This document shows positions 10,886 through 32,511 of a stretch of 32,511 bases of DNA, one piece after another. A program made the translations under genes and the position numbers. A model generated the notes under the pieces. That model saw nothing but the letters and a program-made list of their open reading frames with translations, made no database searches and had not been told where the DNA came from. Within the stretch, counting starts at the first letter, position 1. Every line of letters begins with the position of its first letter. The stretch comes from Bacteroidia bacterium (GTDB taxonomy: Bacteria > Bacteroidota > Bacteroidia > Flavobacteriales_E > Vicingaceae): NCBI GenBank assembly GCA_030426475.1, contig JAUHYR010000027.1, forward strand, positions 1 through 32,511. The letters are read 5' to 3'.

Positions 10886-12892
10886 ATGATTATTGAGCTT
10901 AAAGAAAAGTTTAAATCTCTTAAACCCTTTATCTCTGAAAAACTTTCAGATTTTACAGTTATTACTGGGAAAAATGGAAGTGGAAAATCTCATTTTCTTG
11001 AAGTTATTGGCTATCAAAAAAGGCATGGAACAACAACTGGAATGCCAAAACGAATAATCACTCCAAACATCTCTAAAATACAATATGAAGGGATTATTTC
11101 TTATAGAATAACGAAATTAGAAAAAAGGAATTGGGATGATAAAATCAATCCAATCATAAATGAATACAAAAAATATTCAATTAACACTAAAAAGCTTTTT
11201 GGAATCCTAATAAAATCTGGAATAGATAAAAATCAAGATAGTTTTTTTGATAAAGTACCTAACACAATTATAAATAATGAAGATTTAAAAAAACTTACTA
11301 TTAATTCATTACATGAGTTAAATCCAAATATTAAAACAACATTGATGCAACCTGAGCATCTTGAATCATTCTTTATTGAAAACTCCAATTATAAATATAT
11401 CTATAACTTAATTAAAGTATGGTCTGAAATATCTATCTATCAATCAAAAAATATATATGAACTAGAGGAGTTTGACTTTTATACAACCCCAATTGACGAA
11501 AGATATTTAGATGAAAATGACTTATTTAAATCTCAAATTGAATACCTCTTCTACGGATACTTATATAGACGATATTATAATGACCATGGATATTTTAAAA
11601 AAGAAAAATATGGCTTAAATAATCAATCTTTAAGCGATGATGAATTTACTAAACAATTTCCTCCTCCATGGGAAGTAATCAATGATATTTTAATAAAACA
11701 TTCTATTCCTTTCAGATTTGTTGGCATTAACAGAGAAGAATTTAGCCCAGAGATAAAAAATATATCGTTCAATTTAATTAAACTTCCCAGTAAAGAAATT
11801 ATAGATGTTAGTGAACTTTCTTCTGGGGAAAGGATTATCATTGGGCTAATTTTGAAATTATTTACATGTGAATTTTACAAAGATAGTCTTGAATTACCTG
11901 AATTATTGTTATTGGATGAACCAGATTCCTTTTTACATCCAGAAATGACAAAAATGATGATCGATATTCTTAACAATACTTTTGTAAATGAGTTTGGAAT
12001 AAAAGTTATTATAACCACACATTCTCCTTCAACCGTAGCACTTGCTCCAGAAAACTCTATATTTCAAATCGAAAACGAGCATAGAACCAGCTTATCTAAA
12101 GTATCAAAACAAAAAGCATTAGAAATACTTACTGAAAATCTACCAACACTTTCGATAAATTATGAAAATCATAAACAAGTTTTCGTAGAAAGTCCAACAG
12201 ATGTATTTTACTATCAAACTATTTTTAATAAACTTAATGAGTATGAAAACTATCCTTTTAACTTGTATTTTATCTCCAACTCCATGGGTAAAGGAAATTG
12301 TGAACAAGTTAAAAGTATTGTAAGTAACATCAGAGAATCAGGAAATAACACAAGTTATGGAATAATAGATTGGGATAATTCAAATACCGAAGACGATTTT
12401 ATAAAAGTCCATGGTTCAAATTCAAGATATAGTATAGAAAACTTTATTTATGACCCCATTTATTTATGTGTTTTATTCATGGAATTAAAAGCTCACAATA
12501 TTCATAAGCAATTAGGAAAGGATGAATCCTATAACCATTATGATATTAAAAATGAAGGTGAGGATTTCTTACAAAAAGTAATTGATTGGTTTTTTTCTCA
12601 ATACTATAAAACAATAAAAGTTTTGGAAAAGGAAAAACTCAAAGAAGTTTTATATATTAATGGTAAAAAAGTAAAATTACCTCTATGGTATTTAGATTAT
12701 CATGGTCATAATTTAGAAAGTAACCTAAGAAAAGTATTTAATTCATTAGACAAATTCTCAGGAGAAGGAAAACTTCAAAAAGAATTGACATTGATAATCG
12801 CAAAATGTTATCCTTTAATACCCATTGAATCAAAATGTGTATTAGAAAAAATAACTAAACCCCAACTCCCAACTTCTCCAGCACAAACTTAG
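10886..12892 (+). CDS. OLD-like AAA/ABC ATPase with C-terminal Toprim-like domain (candidate defence nuclease)
   Basis: A 668-residue protein. The N-terminal half is an ABC-type ATPase: Walker A GKNGSGKS at residues 28-35, signature-like LSSGER at 311-316, Walker B LLLLDEPDSFLHPE with Asp344-Glu345, and ITTHSPS shortly after. The segment of about 430-525 looks like a Toprim or DUF4435-like nuclease: VESPTD (Glu435, Asp439), a Gly-containing SMGKGN loop, GIIDWDNSN (Asp495, Asp497) and RYSIENFIYDP. The last 140 residues are not recognised. This is the plan of OLD nucleases and of fused PARIS-type (AriA-AriB) proteins, which act against phages. It lies 18 bases after accC. Its last 12 codons are antisense to the end of uvrA. 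The gene is richer in A+T and ATA codons than its neighbours, which suggests acquisition. A DNA-repair role is the alternative. Confidence 0.75.
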   Translation: MIIELKEKFKSLKPFISEKLSDFTVITGKNGSGKSHFLEVIGYQKRHGTTTGMPKRIITPNISKIQYEGIISYRITKLEKRNWDDKINPIINEYKKYSINTKKLFGILIKSGIDKNQDSFFDKVPNTIINNEDLKKLTINSLHELNPNIKTTLMQPEHLESFFIENSNYKYIYNLIKVWSEISIYQSKNIYELEEFDFYTTPIDERYLDENDLFKSQIEYLFYGYLYRRYYNDHGYFKKEKYGLNNQSLSDDEFTKQFPPPWEVINDILIKHSIPFRFVGINREEFSPEIKNISFNLIKLPSKEIIDVSELSSGERIIIGLILKLFTCEFYKDSLELPELLLLDEPDSFLHPEMTKMMIDILNNTFVNEFGIKVIITTHSPSTVALAPENSIFQIENEHRTSLSKVSKQKALEILTENLPTLSINYENHKQVFVESPTDVFYYQTIFNKLNEYENYPFNLYFISNSMGKGNCEQVKSIVSNIRESGNNTSYGIIDWDNSNTEDDFIKVHGSNSRYSIENFIYDPIYLCVLFMELKAHNIHKQLGKDESYNHYDIKNEGEDFLQKVIDWFFSQYYKTIKVLEKEKLKEVLYINGKKVKLPLWYLDYHGHNLESNLRKVFNSLDKFSGEGKLQKELTLIIAKCYPLIPIESKCVLEKITKPQLPTSPAQT

Positions 12893-15824: not shown

Positions 15825-16412
15825 ATGGACGCTTTTGAAACTACCGACAAAACTTTAGTAACGGCCTATATTAATGGCAACGAATCAGCGTTAGAGCAAC
15901 TATTAGAAAGACACAAGCGAAGACTTCACGCATATATCTATAAATATGTTAGAGATTCAGACCTCACTGAAGATTTATTTCAAGACACTTTTATAAAAGT
16001 CATAAAATCATTAAAAAGTGGCAATTACAATGAAGAAGGTAAATTTTTACCATGGGTTTATCGTATTGCACATAACATTGTAATAGATTATTTTAGAAAG
16101 AGTAACCGTATGCAAACGACCAATGGTGGTGATGATTTTGATATTTTCAGCGTTATTCCCAACAAAGAGAAGAATATTGAGCAGCAACTTTTTACGCAAA
16201 ATGTAAGGAAAGATGTGAGAGTTTATATCCAGCAACTTCCTACCGACCAGAAAGAAGTATTAATGATGCGTGTATATTATGACATGAGTTTTAAAGAAAT
16301 AGCCGACAAAACCAATGTCAGTATTAATACAGCATTAGGAAGAATGCGCTACGCACTCATAAATATGCGCAAATTGATGGAAGAGTCATCAGTTGCTTTG
16401 AGTAATAGATAA
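15825..16412 (+). CDS. ECF-type RNA polymerase sigma factor
   Basis: A 195-residue sigma-70 family factor with only regions 2 and 4, which directs RNA polymerase to a special promoter set. Region 2 is at about residues 20-95 (LLERHKRRLHAYIYKYVRD, DLFQDTFIKVIKSL, FLPWVYRIAHNIVIDYFRK). Region 4 is at about 130-185 (LPTDQKEVLMMRVYYDMSFKEIADKTNVSINTALGRMRYAL). The length is normal. There is no anti-sigma gene beside it; the next gene is a 65-residue protein beyond a strong terminator. The gene is divergent from uvrA. Its start is fixed by a perfect Shine-Dalgarno sequence, rare in this phylum, which suggests translation is controlled separately from most genes. Target genes cannot be told. Confidence 0.93.
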   Translation: MDAFETTDKTLVTAYINGNESALEQLLERHKRRLHAYIYKYVRDSDLTEDLFQDTFIKVIKSLKSGNYNEEGKFLPWVYRIAHNIVIDYFRKSNRMQTTNGGDDFDIFSVIPNKEKNIEQQLFTQNVRKDVRVYIQQLPTDQKEVLMMRVYYDMSFKEIADKTNVSINTALGRMRYALINMRKLMEESSVALSNR

Positions 16413-16416
16413 TATG

Positions 16417-16443
16417 AAAATCCGCTTTTGGCGGATTTTTTTT
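16417..16443 (+). terminator. Strong intrinsic terminator of the sigma factor gene
   Basis: AAAATCCGC and GCGGATTTT form a perfect 9-bp stem with a TTTTG loop, followed by further T to 16443. It starts 5 bases after the sigma factor stop. Confidence 0.88.
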
Positions 16444-16501
16444 ATTTCCATACAATAAACCGAAATAAGTGCCGTTTTTCTCTTAAACAAATAAAAAATA
16501 A

Positions 16502-16699
16502 ATGCCTATGCAACCAACCTCTACTCTTTTTTCCGAATTACAACATCAAGAAAACGAAATTAAGGAGCTCATTAACGAGCCTTCGGATGAATCAACGGGA
16601 CCTAAAAAGGAAACGATTCAAACTATTTTAAGTTTTTCGAAATCGCTTAGCGTTAAAAAAAGTAAAACTATTGGTGATGTAGAATTGATGTTAAATTAA
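16502..16699 (+). CDS. Small protein found downstream of the sigma factor, unknown function
   Basis: A 65-residue soluble protein starting MPMQP; the second ATG at 16508 is an equally possible start. The first half is acidic (HQENEIKELINEPSDES). The second half, KETIQTILSFSKSL ... GDVELMLN, resembles short proteins I recall next to this type of sigma factor in Bacteroidota, so I take it as real despite its size. The C-terminus is Leu-Asn with a conserved-looking VELxLN end. It has no membrane segment, and no function is known to me. Its last 32 bases overlap the convergent methyltransferase gene. A competing frame from 16428 begins inside the terminator and has no such similarity. Confidence 0.6.
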   Translation: MPMQPTSTLFSELQHQENEIKELINEPSDESTGPKKETIQTILSFSKSLSVKKSKTIGDVELMLN

Positions 16700-17861
16700 T
16701 TCTCTTACAAATCACACAAACTTGTTTGTTGTTTAAGATGGTGGTAAAGAATGCTTGATATTCGCCACCATCTTTTATTTTAAGCCTCTTTTTAATTTGC
16801 TGTGGCGTTTCTTTAAAATTTCTGACTGCAACATTTAGTTTTCCACCTTCTATATATTTCTCAATCTTATCTTTTTGATAAGGAATGGTTTCTATTACCT
16901 CAAACAACTTACCCGGAAATTCTTTAACAATGTGATTAGAAGTGTATAAGTGAGAGTTTTTAGCTAATTTACTTACCCCAAACTCTTTTGCAACTTCGTT
17001 AAACCCTCCTGACTTCATAATAGCGGCATTAGGTTCAAATAAATAAGTCAAAGGCTGGGAATATTCAATTTCAATAGTTGATTCTTGGTAATCAAAAGAA
17101 AAAAATTCCTGGCGTCCATCTTCAATGTTTATAGTATTAACAGTAACTCCAAATTCATTTTTCCGAATTAAATAAAGAACTTCTTTACATTCATTTTTCA
17201 CTGCTACAATATGTATTTCACTTACATCCGGCAACTTATTCAACACCTCTTTTATATCAAGCAATGGGGAAACTTTAATTAAAACCTCATCAGCTATTTT
17301 TAGTAATTGAGAGCAGAGCTGCAAAACATTCGGACTATATTCCTCCAGTTTTATTTTTCGATTCCCTTCTACCCTTCTATCCGGGTCAAGAAAAATAATA
17401 TCGAAAGAAGAGTTGTTTTCCTTTAAAAAATCTTCTGCTGTTTGATTATAGTAACTAATATTTTCTTTCTCTAAAATTTTGAAATTATGAACAGTTATGT
17501 CAAATAATTCCTTTTTAGGCTCAATATAGGTTACTCTTTTAGCTTTTTGGGCAAAAAACAAAGTATCTACTCCCCAGCCACCTGTGAGATCAAGTACTGT
17601 CTTATCCTTCGCAAACTTCGATTTATACTTTGCAGTAATTTCTGAACTACTCTGTTGAAGGTTTACATCAGGCGGATAGGTAATATCATTAATATTAAAA
17701 AGGCTAGGAAACTTTTTAATGGCTTTTTGTTTGCCATTAATTTGATTGAGGATAAATTCTTTAGGAAGATGTTTTATTTTGCTAAGTTTTAAAGCTACTT
17801 CTCTGATATCATCATCAAGATGTTTTGAAATAAACTCACTGACTTCTTTAGTAAACTGCAT
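16668..17861 (-). CDS. Class I SAM-dependent methyltransferase with THUMP-like C-terminal domain
   Basis: A 397-residue probable RNA methyltransferase. After a helical N-terminus (residues 1-70), the Rossmann methyltransferase core shows motif I VLDLTGGWGVDTLFFAQ, acidic YIEPKKEL and the catalytic-type motif FLDPDRR (D-P-D in place of the common D/N-P-P-Y/F). The C-terminal third (KLNVAVRNFKETPQQIKKRLKIKDGG ... FFTTILNNKQVCVICKRI) matches the THUMP-like domain of this Bacteroidota family. The substrate is unknown; rRNA or tRNA is likely. Its start at 17861 overlaps the DUF4159 gene stop by one base, so it is the last gene of a five-gene minus-strand set. Confidence 0.83.
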   Translation of the reverse strand: MQFTKEVSEFISKHLDDDIREVALKLSKIKHLPKEFILNQINGKQKAIKKFPSLFNINDITYPPDVNLQQSSSEITAKYKSKFAKDKTVLDLTGGWGVDTLFFAQKAKRVTYIEPKKELFDITVHNFKILEKENISYYNQTAEDFLKENNSSFDIIFLDPDRRVEGNRKIKLEEYSPNVLQLCSQLLKIADEVLIKVSPLLDIKEVLNKLPDVSEIHIVAVKNECKEVLYLIRKNEFGVTVNTINIEDGRQEFFSFDYQESTIEIEYSQPLTYLFEPNAAIMKSGGFNEVAKEFGVSKLAKNSHLYTSNHIVKEFPGKLFEVIETIPYQKDKIEKYIEGGKLNVAVRNFKETPQQIKKRLKIKDGGEYQAFFTTILNNKQVCVICKRINLTSILHHQ

Positions 17862-18523
17862 TACTTTTTAGATTCGCCCATTAAAGCAAATTGCAAAATA
17901 TTTGCGCCCATTTGTAATGCTTTTTTTCTGGTCTCATCTGAATCACCATGCACAGAAGGGTCTTCCCAGCCATCTCCTAAATCACATTCATAAGTGTAAA
18001 AACAAACCAGTTTTCCTTCATAAATTAATCCAAAGCCTTGTGCGGGTTTATTATCATGCTCATGAATTTTTGGTAAACTGCTGAACTTATATTTCTGGTG
18101 ATAGATAGGATGAGAATAGGGGATTTCAATAAAATCTAACTCAGGAAAAACTTTTTTCATTTCTCTTCTTATAAACTTATCCATTCCGTAATTATCATCA
18201 ATATGAAGAAAGCCACCGGAAGTAAGGTAAAGTCTTAAATTTTCTACTTCCTGACTATTAAAAATAACATTACCATGACCTGTTAAATGCAAAAAAGGAT
18301 AATTAAAAATATCAGGGCTGCCTACTTCTATTTCGGCTTGTTCAGGGTTAATGTTTGTTCCTAAATTTTGATTGCAAAACTTAATTAAATTGGGCAAAGA
18401 AGTTTCTCTATTGGAATACCAGTCACCGCCTCCATTATATTTTAACAATGCAATCTGATAGGAATAGTTATTACTAAACGAAAAGAAAAAGAGGCTAGAT
18501 ATGATAATTAAGAAAACTCTCAT
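17861..18523 (-). CDS. DUF4159 domain protein (secreted)
   Basis: A 220-residue protein with an N-terminal hydrophobic signal (MRVFLIIISSLFFFSFSNN). The rest matches the DUF4159 pattern: ALLKYNGGGDWYSN, LPNLIKFCNQ, FLHLTGHGNVIF, LRLYLTSGGFLHIDDNYGMDKFIRREM, IPYSHPIYHQKYKF, LVCFYTYECDLGDGWEDPSVHGDS. In the known family this region has a glutamine-amidotransferase-like fold; the activity is not known. The many His and Asp residues (HIDDN, SHPIY) could bind metal, which is inference. It overlaps both neighbours by one base (stop/start), so it is translated with the VOC protein and the methyltransferase. Confidence 0.85.
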   Translation of the reverse strand: MRVFLIIISSLFFFSFSNNYSYQIALLKYNGGGDWYSNRETSLPNLIKFCNQNLGTNINPEQAEIEVGSPDIFNYPFLHLTGHGNVIFNSQEVENLRLYLTSGGFLHIDDNYGMDKFIRREMKKVFPELDFIEIPYSHPIYHQKYKFSSLPKIHEHDNKPAQGFGLIYEGKLVCFYTYECDLGDGWEDPSVHGDSDETRKKALQMGANILQFALMGESKK

Positions 18524-18939
18524 TAATGTGTTGTATTTCCATCTGCAAAGTCACCAATTGATTGGTCAATCGGCTCCCATAATTCTATTTTATTTCCTTC
18601 CGGATCCATGATATGAGCAAATTTTCCATAGTCATAGGTTTGTATTTCACCCACTACCTTAACGTCATTTTTCTTTAATTCTTCTAACAACCACTCTAAA
18701 TTTTCTACCCTGTAATTAATCATGAACTCCTTTTGAGACGGAGCAAAATACTTTGTATCGGCAGTAAACGGACTCCACTGCGTATAACATACTTCTTCCG
18801 GTTTGTCTGCATTTCTCCACTCAAATGTACTTCCGTAATCATCCGTTTTTAATCCTAGATTTTCGGAATACCAATCTTTCATTTTTTTAGGGTCTTGGCA
18901 TTTAAAAAAAATACCGCCTATTCCTGTTACTTTTTTCAT
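18523..18939 (-). CDS. VOC family (glyoxalase/bleomycin-resistance-like) protein
   Basis: A 138-residue protein of the vicinal oxygen chelate fold, made of two beta-alpha-beta-beta-beta units. The first unit starts GIGGIFFKCQDPKKMKDWYSENLGLKTDDYGSTFEW and the second ends AHIMDPEGNKIELWEPID, the usual VOC ending with a metal-ligand Glu in IELWE. Members include glyoxalase I, dioxygenases and resistance proteins; nothing here fixes the substrate. It lies 11 bases downstream of rsmE and overlaps the next gene by one base. Confidence 0.9.
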   Translation of the reverse strand: MKKVTGIGGIFFKCQDPKKMKDWYSENLGLKTDDYGSTFEWRNADKPEEVCYTQWSPFTADTKYFAPSQKEFMINYRVENLEWLLEELKKNDVKVVGEIQTYDYGKFAHIMDPEGNKIELWEPIDQSIGDFADGNTTH

Positions 18940-29082: not shown

Positions 29083-29940
29083 TTGGGCATACTATCTAAA
29101 TACTACACAATACTTGGGGTAGACGAAGATGCCGACAAAAAGGAAATTAAAAAAGCTTACCGAAAACTAGCCTTACAATACCATCCGGATAGAAATCCAT
29201 CTAAGAAAGCAGCCGAAAAGTTTTTAGAAATTCAGCAGGCGTATGACATTCTTTACAAAAGAGATTTCTCTTCTTTTATTGTTCAGAAGCCGGTAACTCC
29301 AACGCCTAAGGGAAAAGAAAAGCTTACCGAAGAAGAATGGAAAAAGCGCTACGAACTGGGCAAGCAGCGTTACCGTGAAAAACAAAAACGTTTTGCCTTT
29401 AATGTAGTACGTGCCTACCACAAGTTTGTAAAAGGCTGGACGTATAAATTTATGATATTCAACGGCACGCTTTGTTTGTTGGTAGCCCTTTTACTTACCT
29501 ATGATAAGTTTGCACCCGAAGTAACTACCGAAACCCGTATTGTAGATAAAAAGACAAATGCCATTTACAAAAACCCAAGGTATTATGTCTATACTCAGGA
29601 AAACTATTTGTTTGAAGTATCCCCTTCCGTTTACTTTTTAAGTGAACTCAACCAAACCGCCCACATTCAAAAATATCCGTTTTTTAAAGACTTTAAAGGC
29701 ATTTACATTACCATTGATGATACCAATTACGGTGTAGAATACCCTTCCGCTTTCCATACTATTTTTCCGTTTATGCAATTGCTGCTTATTCTTCCGCTAT
29801 TGCTTAACTATTGGTTCAAAGGCCCTACCATTAATTACATGGTGTGTGTGTTTTACAGTCTTTACTTTGCACCCGTTATTCTTATTGTTTGTTTGGTAGA
29901 GAATTACCGAATCTTTTCCCTTTTTGGTATCTATTACTAA
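29083..29940 (+). CDS. Membrane-bound J-domain protein (type III DnaJ-like)
   Basis: A 285-residue protein. Residues 6-65 are a J-domain ([33 protein letters not shown]) with the HPD motif at 34-36 that stimulates Hsp70 ATPase. Residues 75-115 are very basic ([18 protein letters not shown]). There is no Gly/Phe region and no zinc module, so it is not DnaJ itself. The rest has membrane segments at about 122-140 and two or three more near the C-terminus ([35 protein letters not shown]), with an extracytoplasmic loop of about 85 residues between. It probably recruits DnaK to the membrane. The start is TTG at 29083: a stop lies two codons upstream and no ATG precedes the J-domain. The partner is unknown. 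Confidence 0.85.
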
Positions 29941-29962
29941 TACTTAGTGAGATATAGTTAAT

Positions 29963-30319
29963 AGGTTCATTAAACTAAGTTAGAGGTTCTCTCAATCGAC
30001 TTTTAGGTTCCCCAAACTAAGTTAGAGGTTCTTCCAAACAACTTTTAGGTTCTTCAAACTAAGTTAGAGGTTCCTCCAATTAGGTTTTGGGTTCGTGAAT
30101 CTTAGATTTAGGTTCTTGAATTAAAGATTTGCTTCCTTGAATCTTAGATTTGAGTTCATGAATCTTAGATTTGGGTTCGTGAATTCGAGATTTGGGTTCA
30201 TGAATCTTAGATTTAGGTTCGTGAATCTTAGATTAGGGTTCCTGAATTAAAGATTTGCTTCCTTGAATCTTAGATTTAGGTTCTTGAATTCAAGATTTAG
30301 GTTCATGAATCTTAGATTA
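29963..30319. repeat. Array of seventeen 21-bp tandem units
   Basis: Seventeen head-to-tail units of exactly 21 bp with no gaps. Each opens with a GGTTC-type box (AGGTTC, GGGTTC, GAGTTC or GCTTCC). Units 1-6 alternate between an AAACTAAGTTAG core and a CAAn...CTTTT-like core, a 42-bp higher period. Units 7-17 carry GAATCTTAGATTT or variants (GAATTAAAGATTT, GAATTCGAGATTT). Units 8-9 recur almost unchanged as 14-15, six units later. All six frames are broken by stops, so it is not coding despite the period of seven codons. No unique spacers are present. The array fills most of the 576-bp gap between the J-protein and STAND genes. Confidence 0.93.
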
Positions 30320-30330
30320 GCTTCCATAAA

Positions 30331-30516: not shown

Positions 30517-32511
30517 ATGAGCAGATTTCAATCAATAGAAAATGAACTTAAATCAATTAATGGCGCTGTTTTTCAAGAGCTTTGTGATAGTTATCTAAAA
30601 CGGAGGAATGAAAATTATCGTGCATTTGCTCGTACCGGAAGTCAAGTTGGCAAACAAAAAACGACTCCAGGAACTCCTGATTCATTTTTTCTACTTCCCA
30701 ATGGGAATTATTTATTTGTGGAGACGACAACAGACGTCAGTACCAAAGACAAACTATCCAATGATATTCTTGCTTGTTTTAACTTCAAAAAGACTAAAAT
30801 ACCTATAAATAAGATAGAAGAAATCATCTTATGTATCAATTGGAATCTTAGTCAAGAAGAGATACTTAAGCTAAATGAATTAGTAAAGAGGTATAATAAC
30901 CACTCTAGAGTTCGATACCTCATGTTACAAGAATTAGCAATTGACTTACACTTCAATCATCGTGATTTAGTACATGAGTATTTGGGTCTACCTCTTGATA
31001 CAGGTCAGATAGTATCAATGGAAAAATTCATTGATGAATATAATCGAGCTTCAAAAGGAATTTCCACTCCTATCGATAATACTTTTTTACACAGAGAGGA
31101 AGAACTAAAAGAATTGAAAGCAGCCATTCATTCTGATGACTTTATAATTCTGACCGGAGCACCAGGAGTAGGAAAAACTAAATTGGCGTTGGAAGGTATT
31201 AAATCATTTCTTGCTGAAAATTTAGAGTTTCAGGCTTATTGCGTATCCTATAAGCATCATACATTATTGGATGACTTATTTCAATATCTAAACTCAGATA
31301 AAGACTATATACTTTTTGTAGATGATGCTAATAGAATAGATACTTTTAATCAAATCACAAGTTTTTATAGGGCATCAAGGAAGGGCAAACTAAAAGTAGT
31401 TATCACCGTTCGAGATTATGCTTTTCAGGAGATTGGAATTTTATGTCAAGAGTTTGCTCCCCAAAGAATTGATTTAGCAAAATTTTCAGATGAGCAGATT
31501 ATCGAGATTATTAAATTAAAGCCTTTTGAAATTCTTAATCCTGATTATCATAAGGAAATAGTGAGGATAGCAGACGGTAATCCAAGACTAGCCATCATGA
31601 CTTCTTTACTTGCCAAGGCAGAACAAAATATTTATGCTTTAAGGGATGTTTCCGATTTATTCGAAAATTATTTTTCAACCTTTATTAAAGATGATGGGGA
31701 ATTTGCTAGCGATTTAAACATTAAATGTCTTGGATTAATTGCATTTTTCTATACCATCCCATATAAAGACAAGGAAGTAGTTAGTTCACTATTAGCTCAT
31801 TTTGAAATCGACTATTCATCTTTTATTGATGCTATAGACAAGTTGGATAAATTGGAGTTAGTAGAGATTCAATTTGAGCACGTTAAAATCCCAGAGCAGA
31901 ACCTCTCAACCTACTTTTTCTATAAAGCATTTATTAAGGATAGTTTACTCTCTTTTGAAACATTACTCAGTAACTATTACGAAAGCAATAAAAATCGCTT
32001 TAGAGATTGTGTTATCCCTGCAAACAACACTTTTGGAGTTCAAAATGTAATGGATAAACTCCAACCTTTTTTGAAAGATTATTGGAAAACCGTACAGAAA
32101 GATGAAGAAAAAGGATTCAATTTTTTATCCACTTTTTGGTTCTACTTGACAGATGAAACCTTTACTTTCATTTATGGTCAAATAGAAAAACTATCCGAAA
32201 GCAATTCCGAAAATTATGAAGTAACCTATGAAACCAATGCCTTTTCGTACGACAGAAATAACTTATTAGAGCTCATTGAGAACTTTTTCATGTTTCATGA
32301 AAAAGAACTAAAAAATGCCATTCAATTAGCTTTTGAATATGTTAGAAAAGAGCCAGAACACTCACCCGAACTGATATACTCTATTCGTACAAAACTCATC
32401 TTTGATAGAGATGATGAACGATACGGCTTCAAAAGACAATCGAACCTATTTGATATTTTGTTAGAGGGACTAACCAAAAAGGATAATCTTTATGCAAAGG
32501 CATTTTACGAG
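30517..32511 (+). CDS. STAND-type NTPase with N-terminal PD-(D/E)xK-like domain, candidate anti-phage protein (3' end outside window)
   Basis: The frame is open for 665 codons from ATG 30517 to the window edge. The N-terminal 150 residues look like a restriction-type nuclease fold: an early helix with Glu21 (FQELCDSYL), then GTPDSFF with Asp55 and, after a turn, YLFVETT with Glu69; the usual Lys of E-x-K is replaced by Thr71. Residues 185-365 are a P-loop module: Walker A TGAPGVGKT (213-221), Walker B YILFVDDA (Asp269-Asp270), sensor-like VVITVRD with Arg299, and GNPRLAI (354-360), the GxP-type motif of STAND proteins. A helical region follows, probably the start of a repeat-type sensor. This plan fits Avs-like and other STAND defence NTPases. 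I do not recognise the exact family. No partner gene precedes it. Confidence 0.8.
   Translation, partial: MSRFQSIENELKSINGAVFQELCDSYLKRRNENYRAFARTGSQVGKQKTTPGTPDSFFLLPNGNYLFVETTTDVSTKDKLSNDILACFNFKKTKIPINKIEEIILCINWNLSQEEILKLNELVKRYNNHSRVRYLMLQELAIDLHFNHRDLVHEYLGLPLDTGQIVSMEKFIDEYNRASKGISTPIDNTFLHREEELKELKAAIHSDDFIILTGAPGVGKTKLALEGIKSFLAENLEFQAYCVSYKHHTLLDDLFQYLNSDKDYILFVDDANRIDTFNQITSFYRASRKGKLKVVITVRDYAFQEIGILCQEFAPQRIDLAKFSDEQIIEIIKLKPFEILNPDYHKEIVRIADGNPRLAIMTSLLAKAEQNIYALRDVSDLFENYFSTFIKDDGEFASDLNIKCLGLIAFFYTIPYKDKEVVSSLLAHFEIDYSSFIDAIDKLDKLELVEIQFEHVKIPEQNLSTYFFYKAFIKDSLLSFETLLSNYYESNKNRFRDCVIPANNTFGVQNVMDKLQPFLKDYWKTVQKDEEKGFNFLSTFWFYLTDETFTFIYGQIEKLSESNSENYEVTYETNAFSYDRNNLLELIENFFMFHEKELKNAIQLAFEYVRKEPEHSPELIYSIRTKLIFDRDDERYGFKRQSNLFDILLEGLTKKDNLYAKAFYE

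Follow-up and report, generated by a model that had tools for sequence, protein, structure and literature searches.

The window analyzed here, a stretch of 32,511 nucleotides, is the complete contig C36 of a 2.87-Mb assembly of 139 contigs, and it ends within a gene for a protein with an REase-like domain, an nSTAND3 NTPase, and a helical solenoid, of which it holds the 5' half (30517..32511; this gene and its domains and motifs given below lie on the + strand). ORF analysis placed the ATG at 30517 and found no stop codon up to base 32511, where the frame of 665 codons runs off the contig; if stops occur with a frequency of 0.079 per codon, the probability of 664 open codons arising by chance is ∼2e-24. 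A preliminary description of this DNA had reported an unbroken 665-codon frame with Walker A, Walker B, arginine, and GNPR motifs preceded by a PD...E-T-T segment. All of these, the last in the form PD(x13)ExTT, were confirmed to be present and conserved in homologues. Considering that intact homologues span 1217 to 1286 amino acids (∼1,245 residues), the window carries about 53% of the protein. The missing C-terminal half was absent from the 139 contigs of its own assembly, so that it could not be recovered for this gene as had been envisaged, and our statements on the C terminus therefore rest on homologues; the copy in the window may itself be a truncated one.

The genes upstream encode an arginine decarboxylase, a deoxyhypusine-synthase family protein, DUF5606/DUF6852, an M3 peptidase, and a DnaJ-domain protein, and this flank is ordinary and housekeeping in character, with only the upstream side visible because the contig ends inside the STAND gene. 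The DnaJ-domain gene directly upstream (29083-29940) encodes a 285-amino-acid J-domain protein, for which hardly any matches outside the J domain were detected in the family genomes. DnaJ mediates sensing by bNACHT25 (PMC12169576), and the upstream gene was considered as a co-sensor and rejected, since it is conserved beside no homologue. Between the DnaJ-domain gene and the STAND gene lies an intergenic array (29962-30325) of degenerate tandem units of ∼21 bp (periods of 21/42/63), arranged in two sub-arrays. Elsewhere in the window, a 668-amino-acid ORF (10886-12892) has a G+C content of 26.9%, compared with 31 to 39% in the other genes.

Predicted domain architecture

Residues 195 to 316 (31099..31464) matched the Pfam family nSTAND3 (PF20720) with an E value of 5.1e-11 and a score of 42.9 bits, above the cut-off of 27.2, and the homologues scored 30 to 46 bits against this family, whereas the NACHT profile reached only an E value of 0.08 with the window protein. 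The Walker A motif GAPGVGKT (residues 214 to 221; 31156..31179), the Walker B motif LFVDD (residues 266 to 270; 31312..31326), the arginine motif TVRD (residues 297 to 300; 31405..31416), and the GNPR motif at the end of the NTPase lid (residues 354 to 357; 31576..31587) were all conserved, with G214, G217, G219, K220, D269, D270, T297, V298, R299, G354, N355, and R357 invariant across 22 homologues; the conserved Walker A, Walker B, and sensor arginine residues (K220, D269, D270, and R299) fit nSTAND3 membership. Thus, the gene does encode a STAND NTPase, as had been claimed, although the label "unrecognised" has to be dropped, nSTAND3 being a known Pfam domain and the NTPase type of Avs5, an anti-phage protein whose SIR2 head responds to a jumbo-phage protein as its trigger (PMC12931631).

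Downstream of the NTPase, a lid or winged-helix-like region (residues 366 to 480; 31612..31956, with an approximate boundary) is predicted from the secondary structure of a model of the homologue L002, and it is followed by the start of a C-terminal helical solenoid (31957..32511), the remaining ∼580 residues of which lie beyond the contig. The L002 model, covering residues 171 to 1276, had a pLDDT of 83.5 and a pTM of 0.60, and its best Foldseek match in the PDB was Avs4 bound to a phage portal (E value of 5.8e-8, probability of 1.00), followed by exportin HEAT solenoids, EfAvs5 (4.7e-5), and an AVAST5 filament (1.1e-4). The global TM-scores of these matches were low (0.15 to 0.3), as is expected for flexible solenoids, and the Avs4 and Avs5 matches therefore speak for a shared architecture rather than close kinship. 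In addition, mean pairwise identity was 43 to 48% in the head, NTPase, and lid, compared with 30 to 35% in the solenoid, which would be expected if the solenoid acts as a sensor, although solenoids generally diverge faster as well. The C-terminal sensor proposed earlier is thus backed by a large helical C terminus, known from the homologues, that resembles Avs4 first and Avs5 second.

The N- and C-terminal parts outside nSTAND3 matched no Pfam family, and residues 1 to 180 searched alone gave no Pfam match either. An AlphaFold model of the N terminus built from a 21-sequence alignment (plasmid-database sequences were left out of the structure predictions) displayed a mixed alpha/beta core with a mean pLDDT of 81 and with strands at residues 36 to 39, 56 to 59, 65 to 71, 100 to 107, and 131 to 135, the elements following the order helix-helix-E-E-E-helix-E-helix-E-helix; confidence was low (41 to 48) in the loop preceding the catalytic Asp. 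Foldseek matched this model to EcoT38I (probability of 0.99), EcoO109I, EndoMS/NucS, MUS81, VRR_NUC, MunI, Can2, and Avs4, with weak E values (0.006 to 0.4) spread over many independent PD-(D/E)xK proteins rather than one strong match, and a viral library added Mrr, MmcB, and VRR-NUC. RPB5 proteins also scored against the model; the N-terminal domain of RPB5 is itself related to the PD-(D/E)xK fold. Moreover, in a single hhalign comparison, the head aligned with the GxD...QxK heads of three sister STAND proteins (L063, L050, and L051) with a probability of 91% and an E value of 1e-6. Based on these predictions, residues 1 to 160 (30517..30996) are likely to adopt a PD-(D/E)xK fold and form the predicted effector, in line with the nuclease-like N terminus suggested at the outset.

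The putative active site and its missing lysine

Asp55, Glu69, Lys79, Asp83, and Cys87 were invariant in 22 of 22 sequences. Asp55, which closes the GTPD motif (residues 52 to 55; 30670..30681), is the predicted metal-binding Asp, and together with Glu69 it supplies, by sequence, the catalytic Asp and Glu of the PD-(D/E)xK superfamily. The canonical lysine, expected two residues after the Glu, is absent: in the segment E69-T-T71-T72 (30721..30732), position 71 is Thr or Ser in every member, while position 72 is Thr in all but L060 (T72K). By motif spacing, we match E69-x-T71 to the Q-A-K of L063, the automatic alignment of this loop being unreliable; read in this way, L063 appears to have a Gln at the distance from the helix Asp at which the window family has Lys79.

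Lys77 and Lys79 had been put forward as alternative active-site residues, of which only Lys79 remains a candidate, because Lys77 is not conserved. The invariant pair K79-xxx-D83 (30751..30765) falls on a helix (residues 77 to 87) that follows strand 3 in the AlphaFold model, and Lys79 may plausibly take over the role of the missing ExK lysine. Two further lysines, Lys46 and Lys48, are each kept in all sequences but one. We tentatively suggest, at somewhat less than even odds, that these proteins constitute a family of their own among the STAND immune sensors with nuclease heads and have a rebuilt active site, the lysine having left the third strand (where ExK became ExT) for a place beside Asp83 on the Lys79 helix, whereas the sister STAND proteins stayed canonical. 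Such a relocation, if true, may alter the substrate or allow the effector to be controlled more tightly, and the fixed pattern of ExT plus Lys79 offers a direct mutational test of lysine movement in a PD-(D/E)xK effector.

The Thr or Ser in place of the ExK lysine in every member, the single T72K exception, and the poorly modeled loop before the Asp would also suit a head that is a catalytically dead nuclease fold, through which the same sensor would bind nucleic acid or recruit another effector without cleaving anything. However, D55, E69, K79, and D83 do not vary even among sequences that are about 35% identical, a constancy rarely seen in dead domains, and the neighborhoods offered no conserved partner gene as a possible recruited effector, so that we consider a dead head unlikely.

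Distribution, mobility, and genomic context

About 20 full-length homologues, with identities ranging from 75% down to about 20 to 30%, were distributed patchily over Bacteroidota, Ignavibacteria, Leptospira plasmids, and one viral contig. Searches of the collection and of genomes identified the closest relative in Lewinella (75%), followed by Algoriphagus, Flavobacteriaceae, and Myroides (67 to 69%), Ignavibacteria-type MAGs (57 to 58%), the viral contig (54%), and 13 Leptospira plasmids (48 to 50%), with further Bacteroidota relatives at about 30% identity or less. Two matches (L020 and L021) were rejected as thioredoxin-like chance matches, and a search of annotated phage genomes (INPHARED) returned no homologue. 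The gene was rare: within the window's own family it occurred in 1 of 46 genomes, in one further family in about 9 of 349, and in a phylum sample, as long matches, in 6 of 392 (about 1.5%). Copies from Algoriphagus (Cytophagales) and a Flavobacteriaceae MAG, whose hosts belong to different orders, shared 95.9% DNA identity, and those from Algoriphagus and Myroides (Flavobacteriales) shared 91.8% of bases, indicating recent transfer across orders. For the pairs that could be measured, dN/dS was 0.02 to 0.36 in every domain; thus, head and sensor alike are under purifying selection.

Loss has occurred as well as gain, as evidenced by a decayed homologue with in-frame stops (L030:9370-11560; G199) and a 125-amino-acid N-terminal remnant (L029:9033-9410; G418). 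Another homologue (L028:7277-11069) is broken into frames of 629 and 643 amino acids, with the frame change near a duplicated TGCTGAAAGTGC, which may reflect decay, phase variation, or an assembly error. A candidate Septu system at the same locus was dismissed, since matches to IS5376 identified the pair at 16270-18678 as a transposase of the IS21 type with its ATPase. A separate STAND NTPase (L019:826-3480) has a head that by eye looks like a trypsin-like protease and provides an example of head swapping.

The neighbors of the homologues were diverse. For instance, one homologue followed a type III R-M operon at a distance of 31 bases (L004), one lay near homologues of a type III methylase and an integrase (L008), and one came two bases after AbiEi/AbiEii (L060), while others adjoined Fic (L027), HipA (L026), an integrase (L062), or PRTase-CE and NADAR (L007); plain housekeeping neighbors were found at L005, L056, and L058. 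On the Leptospira plasmid pLiSL2, a second REase-STAND protein of 1264 amino acids (L009:13881-17672) directly follows the homologue, with a GGVDV...FQVKK head, the Walker A motif GLSGVGKT, and an NTPase that is 28% identical. An all-against-all comparison of neighbors found no conserved partner gene, the groups shared by two or three loci being MGE, defense, or chance genes, and the protein therefore appears to act as a single-gene module.

In a paired control, 115 neighbors of 12 homologues were set against 117 proteins drawn from randomly chosen stretches of those 12 genomes, and 64 PADLOC families were reached at an E value of 1e-15 near homologues versus 52 in the control. The neighbor set included SoFic and the two Septu genes, PtuA and PtuB, while the control matches shown were mainly housekeeping relatives (UvrD, DndA/IscS-like, and SspA). 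Because the raw counts do not separate the two sets, we regard the defense-island context as suggestive but not proven: the neighborhood comparison outlined in the preliminary description revealed a patchy, mobile, and often defense-adjacent gene but no clear enrichment. The constant housekeeping surroundings that would have spoken against a defense role were not observed among the homologues, whose neighbors varied, although the window flank is housekeeping.

Mobility of this kind could also point to a factor that regulates or maintains the mobile elements themselves, serving plasmid stability or competition between elements rather than anti-phage defense of the host. The Leptospira plasmids belong to one replicon cluster, two of their copies (L010 and L011) adjoin ParA/ParB genes, and one copy (L025) shares its contig with phage genes, including a capsid gene; nevertheless, most copies are on non-plasmid contigs with varied neighbors, and the architecture matches Avs4 and Avs5, which makes such a role improbable. 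A STAND transcriptional regulator or housekeeping ATPase is very improbable, despite the housekeeping flank of the window and the existence of MalT-like transcription activators among STAND ATPases, given the nuclease-fold head in place of a DNA-binding output domain, the rarity of the gene in its own family and phylum, and the near-identical copies across orders.

Proposed function and comparison with known systems

Taken together, we favor, with a probability of roughly two in three, an NLR-like immune sensor of the STAND class whose head has a nuclease fold and which would work as an Avs-like single protein. The nSTAND3 ATPase would keep the protein off in a resting cell until the C-terminal solenoid of ∼800 residues binds a phage product; ATP binding would then drive oligomerization and gather the N-terminal PD-(D/E)xK-fold domains, so that nucleic acid would be cut and the infection stopped, probably at the cell's own cost. 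Since the gene has spread across phyla with all its domains and without partner genes, it should be testable alone. If the proposal is true, the known sensor families of the Avs type would be joined by one that is as yet unlabelled; PADLOC-DB 2.0.0 has no entry matching it, and its copies on Leptospira plasmids carry the annotation "hypothetical protein".

Among known systems, the three-part AVAST build (N-terminal effector, STAND NTPase, and large C-terminal sensor) is found here, with the C terminus taken from homologues. PADLOC models of Avs1 to Avs5 gave no convincing match to 20 members (Avs2 reached 2e-4 in one of them), mad8 matched 14 of the 20, presumably via the P-loop, and no Avs chain was among the PDB sequence matches up to an E value of 1. 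Avs4 (AVAST type 4; PDB 8dgf) combines a nuclease-fold N terminus, a STAND NTPase, and a long helical C terminus and was both the top structural match of the NTPase and C terminus and among the matches of the N-terminal model, but it shows no detectable sequence match, its chain of 1,534 residues is about 300 residues longer, and the window family is without the canonical lysine. Avs5 (SIR2-nSTAND3; PDB 9jap and 9nc9; PMC12931631) shares the nSTAND3 NTPase, the helical C terminus, and a Foldseek match, whereas its head is SIR2 instead of a nuclease fold. The Bacteroidota REase-STAND proteins L063, L050, and L051 likewise join an REase head, homologous by profile, to a STAND NTPase, but they retain the canonical GxD...QxK where the window family has GTPD...ExT followed by a helix with an invariant Lys and an invariant Asp. 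The bNACHT and bacterial NLR-related proteins (PMC12169576) are also one-polypeptide immune sensors of the STAND superfamily, with a NACHT rather than an nSTAND3 NTPase. By sequence, the family appears to belong to none of Avs1 to Avs5, and we file it among the nuclease-headed STAND immune sensors rather than as an Avs type; in build and predicted shape, it resembles Avs1 to Avs4 (nuclease effector, STAND, and solenoid) combined with the NTPase class of Avs5.
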